DNA of 61,105 bases, from contig CAJAIA010000024.1 in the NCBI GenBank assembly GCA_903939735.1, forward strand, positions 1-61,105, read 5' to 3'. Origin of the DNA: an uncultured Ignavibacteria bacterium. GTDB taxonomy: Bacteria; Bacteroidota; Ignavibacteria; Kapaibacteriales; Kapaibacteriaceae. This document shows, in pieces, positions 34,676-34,863 of this stretch; positions within the stretch are counted from its first letter, which is position 1, and each line of letters opens with the position of its first letter. Under the pieces are notes generated by a model. That model saw nothing but the letters and a program-made list of their open reading frames with translations, was not told the origin of the DNA and searched no databases. Both the position numbers and the translations under genes were made by a program.

Positions 34676-34705
34676 TTGCATATCACGCAACAACATGTAT
34701 ATTCG
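34676..34705 (+). promoter_or_regulatory. Predicted promoter of the met leader and metY-metX-hom operon
   Basis: TTGCAT (34676-34681) and TATATT (34698-34703) are separated by 16 bases; the latter is also the start of TATATTCG, a one-base variant of the TAnnTTTG element used elsewhere in the window. The expected transcription start is at about 34709-34712, at or just before the leader ATG. Confidence 0.5.
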
Positions 34706-34711
34706 CACCCA

Positions 34712-34807
34712 ATGAACTCGCGCCTAAACCATTCCATGTCGACAACAGCCATCATGCATTGCTGCATGATGTGTATGTGTATGTCATGTGAGGAGTGGCT
34801 CGACTAA
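34712..34807 (+). CDS. Met/Cys-rich leader peptide of the metY-metX-hom operon (attenuator)
   Basis: This 31-codon ORF begins with ATG at 34712 and ends with TAA at 34805-34807. Codons 16-26 encode HCCMMCMCMSC, with 5 Cys and 4 Met codons in eleven positions; the whole peptide has 7 Met and 5 Cys. It is followed 24 bases later by a terminator and then by methionine-pathway genes. No Shine-Dalgarno is visible, and the predicted transcript begins at or next to the ATG, so it may be read as a leaderless mRNA. The composition and position fit a sensor ORF whose translation slows when charged Met- or Cys-tRNA is scarce. It is too short for ordinary ORF callers. Confidence 0.75.
   Translation: MNSRLNHSMSTTAIMHCCMMCMCMSCEEWLD
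34750..34771 (+). promoter_or_regulatory. Hairpin over the Cys/Met codons of the leader
   Basis: CATCATGCA pairs perfectly with TGCATGATG across the loop TTGC. The 9-bp hairpin covers codons 13-20 of the leader, including Cys-Cys-Met-Met, and could act as the pause hairpin that synchronises ribosome and polymerase. Confidence 0.5.
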
Positions 34808-34842
34808 GAACGCAACAACGATAATCATCAGACGCCATTCCT
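34791..34842 (+). promoter_or_regulatory. Predicted antiterminator pairing
   Basis: AGGAGTGGC (34791-34799, leader codons 27-30) can pair over 9 bp, with one G-U, with GCCATTCCT (34834-34842), which contains most of the 5' arm of the terminator. The two structures are mutually exclusive. A ribosome waiting at the stop codon would cover the first strand; one stalled at the Cys/Met run would leave it free. Confidence 0.6.
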
Positions 34843-34863
34843 ATCACGGGGATGGCGTTTTTT
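34832..34863 (+). terminator. Attenuator terminator upstream of metY
   Basis: ACGCCATTCC pairs with GGGATGGCGT (one T-G pair) around a 7-base loop and is followed by six T residues. It lies between the leader ORF and metY on the same strand, 50 bases before the metY ATG, so it can only act on transcripts heading into metY-metX-hom. Confidence 0.85.

Follow-up and report, generated by a model that had tools for sequence, protein, structure and literature searches.

A predicted Met/Cys leader-peptide attenuator upstream of metY in an uncultured Ignavibacteria bacterium, with counterparts in other phyla

The metY-metX-hom genes of an uncultured Ignavibacteria bacterium are very probably preceded by a real, conserved ribosome-mediated transcription attenuator (probability roughly 0.88), whose leader peptide, rich in methionine and cysteine, would sense the charging of Met-tRNA and Cys-tRNA. 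Attenuators of the classical build combine a short ORF rich in codons for the products of the pathway, a terminator, and a mutually exclusive antiterminator. The stretch of DNA analysed here, 61,105 nucleotides long and hereafter called the window, comes from a 2.47 Mb genome (completeness 100), of which it forms one contig; it carries an upstream ORF rich in pathway codons, a terminator before the first gene, and an exclusive antiterminator kept by compensating changes (Table 1). The attenuation reading put forward in the initial annotation is supported by the run of Met and Cys codons in the ORF, the terminator, the antiterminator, their covariation and their geometry, both in relatives of the source organism and in other phyla.

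In the proposed model, RNA polymerase would start just upstream of the leader ATG and a ribosome would follow. If either Met or Cys ran low, the ribosome would stall within the run before reaching strand 2, leaving that strand free to pair with strand 3; no terminator would form, and metY-metX-hom would be transcribed. When both amino acids are plentiful, the ribosome would reach the stop codon and cover strand 2, the 3:4 pairing would form, and transcription would end near 34863. Because strand 2 lies between the run and the stop codon, a ribosome stalled in the run may be expected to free this strand and a ribosome at the stop codon to cover it. MetY would supply the homocysteine that is converted to methionine and also, probably, to cysteine, via cystathionine beta-synthase and an enzyme of the cystathionine gamma-lyase/synthase family. 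Since both amino acids are probably made from MetY homocysteine, as the gene set suggests, one switch reading both codons would report on the two products of the pathway. Joint sensing of the two amino acids is likely.

Table 1. Positions of the leader elements, the downstream genes and the tRNA genes in the window.
Feature	Position	Strand	Basis
Candidate sigma-70-type promoter, TTTGCA-17-TATATT	34675..34703	+	Not significant alone (p 0.38)
Putative leader peptide ORF, 31 codons	34712..34807	+	ORF read from sequence
9-bp hairpin across part of the control codons	34750..34771	+	MFE fold; stability not above shuffles
Control codons, Met or Cys at 10 of 12 codons (15-26)	34754..34789	+	Codon count
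Strand 2, 5′ side of the antiterminator, AGGAGTGGC, between control codons and stop codon	34791..34799	+	Duplex, covariation, geometry
Intrinsic terminator; stem 34830-34860, T run 34858-34863	34830..34863	+	Terminator scan, duplex test, covariation
Strand 3, 5′ arm of the terminator, GCCATTCCT	34834-34842	+	Pairing with strand 2
metY, O-acetylhomoserine sulfhydrylase	34913..36217	+	OAH_OAS_sulfhy TIGR01326, 657 bits, cut-off 495
metX, homoserine O-acetyltransferase-like	36214..37212	+	TIGR01392, 320 bits, below cut-off 500
hom, homoserine dehydrogenase	37212..38399	+	NF004976, 314 bits, cut-off 205
tRNA gene	25173-25254	-	Rfam; with the next row, the sole matches at gathering score in the window
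tRNA gene	48941-49014	-	Rfam

The leader peptide, MNSRLNHSMSTTAIMHCCMMCMCMSCEEWLD followed by the stop codon, carries HCCMMCMCMSC at codons 16-26, a run lengthened by Met15. It reaches a density of 9 Met or Cys in 10 codons, while the runners-up among the 1560 window ORFs of at least 8 codons, counted on both strands, reach 6. None of the Pfam and NCBIfam models matches the peptide. A terminator scan of 34500-35000 returned a single site, on the + strand, with 0.5 expected from shuffles. Strand 2 and strand 3 form 9 contiguous pairs, and this antiterminator duplex is better than 199 of 200 shuffles (z -3.87). The elements named in the initial annotation are therefore found as described: the 31-codon ORF and its run are exact to the base, the strong terminator upstream of metY is present, the 9-bp antiterminator pairing is confirmed, and profile matches agree with metY-metX-hom downstream, the MetX-like gene scoring below its cut-off. 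The same account included a hairpin over the codons, of which only part stands. It does appear in the MFE fold, yet it is no better than shuffles (z -0.35 in the window; mean z -0.13 over 54 leaders) and is not conserved; the control-codon stretch folds with z < -1.64 in 10 of the 54. The fold of the whole region in the window is likewise unremarkable (z -1.66, with 10 of 200 shuffles equally good). A strand 1:2 protector or pause pairing amounts to a 7-bp match in the window (z -0.51), and over 58 leaders the pairing of strand 2 to what precedes the run has a mean z of -0.35; neither is above shuffles. A strand 1:2 hairpin and a hairpin over the codons are not supported as general features.

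To assess the distribution of the leader, metY loci were gathered from three sources: 60 relatives, with 18 at E≤1e-100; 294 genomes of the class, with 91 at E≤1e-140; and a species collection, with 80 loci. All upstream regions were placed in gene orientation and then scanned for an ORF with at least 6 (also at least 5 or 7) Met/Cys in 10 codons. At thresholds of 5, 6 and 7, such an ORF lies upstream of metY in 57, 50 and 39 of 174 loci, a number that includes duplicates between collections (at least L003 and L020). The corresponding counts are 3, 0 and 0 in dinucleotide shuffles (n=870), 2, 0 and 0 on the antisense strand (n=174), and 2, 0 and 0 in control windows elsewhere in the loci (n=294). 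With 50 of 174 loci against none of 870 shuffles, the leader before metY is not a product of chance. Among the relatives, it is present in 13 of 14 full-length metY loci (L002-L014), 4 of the 18 loci being cut by contig ends and left out; the metY of relative L020 is 85% identical to that of the window. In the case of G001, one of the contig-cut loci, a leader and terminator stand before the metY start at the end of another contig (L197). The exception, L015, belongs to the same family as the window and has a divergent metY (52% identity) with no leader; a SAM-I/IV riboswitch (2829-2947, - strand) occupies the leader's place.

In the species collection, 22 of 80 loci have a Met/Cys-run ORF at the threshold of 5, including L020, already counted as a relative, and four doubtful cases with no terminator or no convincing duplex (L021, L028, L047 and L059). 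The other leaders come from records labelled Wenzhouxiangella and other Gammaproteobacteria, Eisenbacteria (L022, L031), Thermoanaerobaculia (L033) and Acidobacteria (L037). The antiterminator duplex reaches p≤0.05 in L022, L030, L034, L037, L038, L042, L046, L049, L055 and L058, falls between 0.05 and 0.1 in L027, L031, L032, L035 and L054, and has a p of 0.24 in L033. The Lysobacteraceae locus L024 has the run ORF, its terminator was not found, and in L025 the run becomes visible under a wider start rule. The 40 more distant metY loci, L060-L099, show no leader at all. The leader had been seen in one genome; it is real there and is not limited to it, as it occurs in several phyla. The check then proposed, i.e., a variable ORF with kept Met/Cys codons and covarying helices, gave a positive answer in relatives and in other phyla.

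Pairing was evaluated locus by locus by a duplex test of the sequence lying between the last control codon and the terminator against the terminator's 5′ arm, relative to shuffles and to strands swapped between loci. Of the 64 candidates, a count that takes in the doubtful leaders, 58 have a T-run hairpin and a usable region before it. The duplex is significant (p≤0.05) in 39 of these 58, with a mean z of -2.8, and its energy averages -14.4 kcal/mol with a leader's own strands vs. -9.8 kcal/mol with strands swapped between loci. Removing L047, L028, L168 and L181, none of which had a significant duplex, leaves the 54 leaders used for geometry and for the codon hairpin, and the duplex lies above p 0.05 in 15 of these; adding L197 and L213 gives the 56 leaders used for helix length. 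A contiguous helix of at least 7 bp is present in 39 of the 56, vs. 7.5% of simple shuffles and 21% of 56 swaps. The same pairing is made with other letters in different loci: AGGAGTGGC with GCCATTCCT in the window, GGAAGATGG with CCATCTTCC in L197, GTGAGAATG with CATTCTCAC in L012, and TGCTGCGGG with CCCGCAGCG in L046. The geometry is also kept across the 54 leaders: the stop codon lies 22-38 nt from the terminator start (median 25.5), and strand 2, which begins a median of 9.5 nt after the final control codon, ends ahead of the stop codon in 53.

Covariation was examined by aligning 14 leaders, which come from 13 loci within the order. In the terminator, 99.3% of cells are paired and both sides have changed in 6 of 10 pairs. 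In the antiterminator, 75.3% of cells are paired, vs. 35-54% when the strands are slid, and both sides have changed in 7 of 13 pairs; its register is the best of 13 offsets, with 116 of 140 cells paired against 48-76 for the others. The antiterminator covariation score is 0.306 vs. 0.199, a value reached in none of 500 shuffles, which ignore kinship, while two more of the five antiterminator measures are matched by 37 and 47 of the 500. In two other alignments, a column scan ranks the terminator first and places the antiterminator outside the 25 best helices, perhaps because strand 2 is misaligned; the case there rests on the per-locus duplexes.

The gene and the position are shared with riboswitches. 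The class yielded 95 metY places, from which L116 (34 nt upstream) and G289 and G296 (incomplete genes) were left out. The remaining 92 loci, which include two from some genomes and a few with only 275-612 nt of upstream sequence, comprise 47 with a SAM riboswitch only, 20 with a leader only, 10 with both and 15 with neither. In all 10 stacked loci (L121, L126, L128, L129, L133, L139, L141, L149, L155 and L160), the leader comes first and a SAM-I riboswitch adjoins the gene; the leader terminator was not found in L133. These loci are possible two-input gates. In 8 others (L007, L146, L148, L150, L159, L162, L165 and L176), two Met-rich leaders stand in tandem before metY, each with its terminator except the second of L176. 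At some metY genes the putative leader stands where others have a SAM riboswitch, and at some the two are stacked. Taken across phyla, the leader probably represents a family of Met/Cys-tRNA attenuators that replaces SAM riboswitches before metY, or is combined in a fixed order, leader first, with a riboswitch or a second leader; stacking with the riboswitch would give a two-terminator gate that needs both low aminoacyl-tRNA and low SAM, and one leader would by itself sense both sulfur amino acids.

A permissive search of 11 of the 15 loci with neither element found two matches just under the SAM-I threshold and two just under that of SAM-alpha. SAM-alpha matches just under gathering score lie before metY in L187 (365-438 and 586-660, in tandem) and in L166 (555-629). 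A poly-Cys ORF is present in three of the 15. The poly-Cys ORFs upstream of metY in L021, L168 (384-548), L180 and L181 were rejected as leaders of the present type, since either no terminator was found or the hairpin lay at an unusual distance, whether shorter or longer; these short ORFs possibly belong to a different cysteine leader.

A wider leader scan gave 23 places, of which we counted the window and 8 more (L193, L194, L197, L198, L199/L214 as one place, L201, L212 and L213); the rest lay inside long frames or had no visible terminator. In L213, from genome G012 of the window's family, dapD is followed by the leader, its terminator, metX and hom with no metY between, and the metY search recovered none from that genome at its threshold. 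In G076 (L193), a leader and terminator (1339-1548) precede the gene of a sulfate ABC transporter substrate-binding protein (1931-3004; TIGR00971, 511 bits). Both targets, metX-hom and the sulfate-binding-protein gene, would fit the attenuator reading.

In the window, metY and metX overlap by a few bases, as do metX and hom. The rest of the source genome suggests how sulfur passes through MetY. CysE is not recognised there, the best model matches (25 and 23 bits) being other hexapeptide proteins, a carbonic-anhydrase-like protein and DapD. A single protein of the CysK family reaches full score; it has CBS domains, and its best match is cystathionine beta-synthase (475 bits, just below the cut-off of 510). 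A second PLP enzyme scores highest with a model of bifunctional cystathionine gamma-lyase (535 bits, below its cut-off of 594); among the 25 models shown, it passes only the cystathionine gamma-synthase cut-off (525 vs. 513). As it matches both models, it would belong to the gamma-lyase/synthase family and could work in either direction. Since no CysE is recognised and the only full-score CysK-family protein resembles cystathionine beta-synthase, cysteine is probably made from homocysteine, the product of MetY, and joint sensing of Met and Cys would be sensible in this genome. The argument is not general: of 36 genomes searched, 22 have CysE-model matches of 156-174 bits, all below the cut-off of 210.65, and the other 14 lack any match so strong; Cys-rich leaders occur both with and without a CysE-like gene. 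A rule equating a Cys-rich leader with the absence of CysE fails, since some of the 22 genomes carry such leaders.

The composition of the runs bears on whether both amino acids are sensed. The leader might respond to methionine alone, with Cys codons present for another reason, e.g., an ATGTGY repeat that gives an RNA fold or slows the ribosome. At least one Cys is found in 51 of the 54 runs. All 54 hold at least two Met, a single Cys is found in 10 and none in 3, and Met outnumbers Cys in most leaders of class family f18, all of which would suit sensing of methionine alone. However, 41 of the 54 runs hold at least two Cys, runs such as CCCC, CLCC and CQCQC depart from the repeat, and the third positions vary (TGT 74, TGC 82, in windows selected for Met/Cys content). 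Shuffled sequences fold as well as the run, and the same pathway probably yields cysteine in the source genome. We consider a Met-only switch rather unlikely; joint Met/Cys sensing is reasonable in view of the codon content and the gene set.

Other accounts would dispense with attenuation as such. Peptides rich in Met and Cys are able to bind soft metals, and the leader peptide could itself be active, for instance by binding copper or zinc, with its position before metY incidental. Against this, the residues outside the run vary between lineages when compared by eye, while the terminator, the antiterminator and the gene context are kept, and the element substitutes for SAM riboswitches; an active peptide is highly improbable. 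An RNA aptamer, i.e., a SAM or other riboswitch with an incidental ORF, would agree with the gene, the place and the kind of terminator, all as for the SAM-I riboswitches of the class. Yet no Rfam family reaches its gathering score in the window region, where the two permissive hits belong to unrelated families and lie far below theirs, and none of the Trp, His, Thr and Leu leaders, the SAM families or the T-box (RF00230) matches; a riboswitch in the window was rejected on this basis. The leaders of L003-L014 have no Rfam match either, and the alignments show, by eye, no conserved core beyond the run and the strands of the terminator and antiterminator, which makes an aptamer scarcely credible. 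Control might instead be exerted on metY translation or through Rho. The mycobacterial Cys-run leaders would be the precedent, as passages of PMC9031893 and PMC13236596 say that they act on translation and the relevant part of PMC1262725 reports no conserved terminator hairpin. The T-run hairpin present behind 58 of the 64 candidate leaders, doubtful ones included, and its covariation among relatives argue for the intrinsic terminator, and control by translation or Rho is very unlikely.

The attenuator proposed here can be placed among known systems. Leaders of the trp, his, thr and leu type are named in the consulted parts of PMC1262725 and PMC3766115. Like them (RF00513, RF00514, RF00506 and RF00512), the present element has an ORF rich in product codons, a terminator and an exclusive antiterminator; unlike them, it has Met and Cys as control codons, places strand 2 before the stop codon, has an unsupported strand 1:2 pairing, lacks an Rfam match and occurs in other phyla. 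Polycysteine leaderless sORFs of mycobacteria (Canestrari 2020, as cited in passages of PMC9031893 and PMC13236596) were predicted in part of PMC1262725. As described in these passages, they share a Cys-run leader before sulfur genes, and the start in the window would be near-leaderless by promoter position only; they are restricted to Cys, whereas the window has a mixed Met/Cys run with a terminator, in another phylum and before other target genes. The metXZ RNA element of beta-proteobacteria (Leyn 2014, PMC4239095) is a candidate terminator-antiterminator before metX/metZ, as is the leader before metY; it is set apart by its published description, in the portion consulted, of an RNA with six highly conserved regions and possibly a pseudoknot, and the word ORF is absent from the main text. 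SAM-I and SAM-I/IV riboswitches (RF00162, RF01725) share the place before metY, sense SAM by an aptamer and are absent from the window, while the leader would sense tRNA charging by means of the ribosome.

As to methionine itself, PMC1262725, in the part consulted, saw no conserved RNA structures before actinobacterial methionine operons, and the consulted parts of PMC2965389 name no methionine or cysteine leader. In the literature surveyed, bacterial methionine control relies on SAM riboswitches, T-boxes and DNA-binding regulators. The open-licence PMC literature yielded no account of a Met/Cys leader upstream of metY. A Met/Cys leader-peptide switch in several phyla would extend the list of amino acids sensed via ribosome stalling. 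It would also make metY a case in which sensing of tRNA and sensing of SAM, upstream of a single gene, substitute for or strengthen each other, and the system offers a direct test of how cells weigh amino acids against the cofactor SAM. The leader moreover offers a strong signature by which sulfur genes of uncultured bacteria could be annotated.

In the window, the -10 element of the candidate promoter ends 8 nt upstream of the leader ATG, and the leader mRNA would consequently be nearly leaderless; TATATT followed by CGC, 9-11 nt before the ATG, is also found in L003, L004 and L006. A promoter with p≤0.1 is found in 1 of 5 leaders of the window's family and in 0 of 9 in the rest of the order. 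A TTGACA-type promoter lies 5-9 nt before the ATG in 12 of 13 gamma-proteobacterial leaders (p≤0.1 in 11), and the figures for the four leaders of other phyla are 6-10 nt and 3 of 4; such leaders would be translated from nearly leaderless RNA. For 18 further loci of the class, the distance from the promoter to the first leader is 12-29 nt in 16, with a search reach of at most 30 nt.
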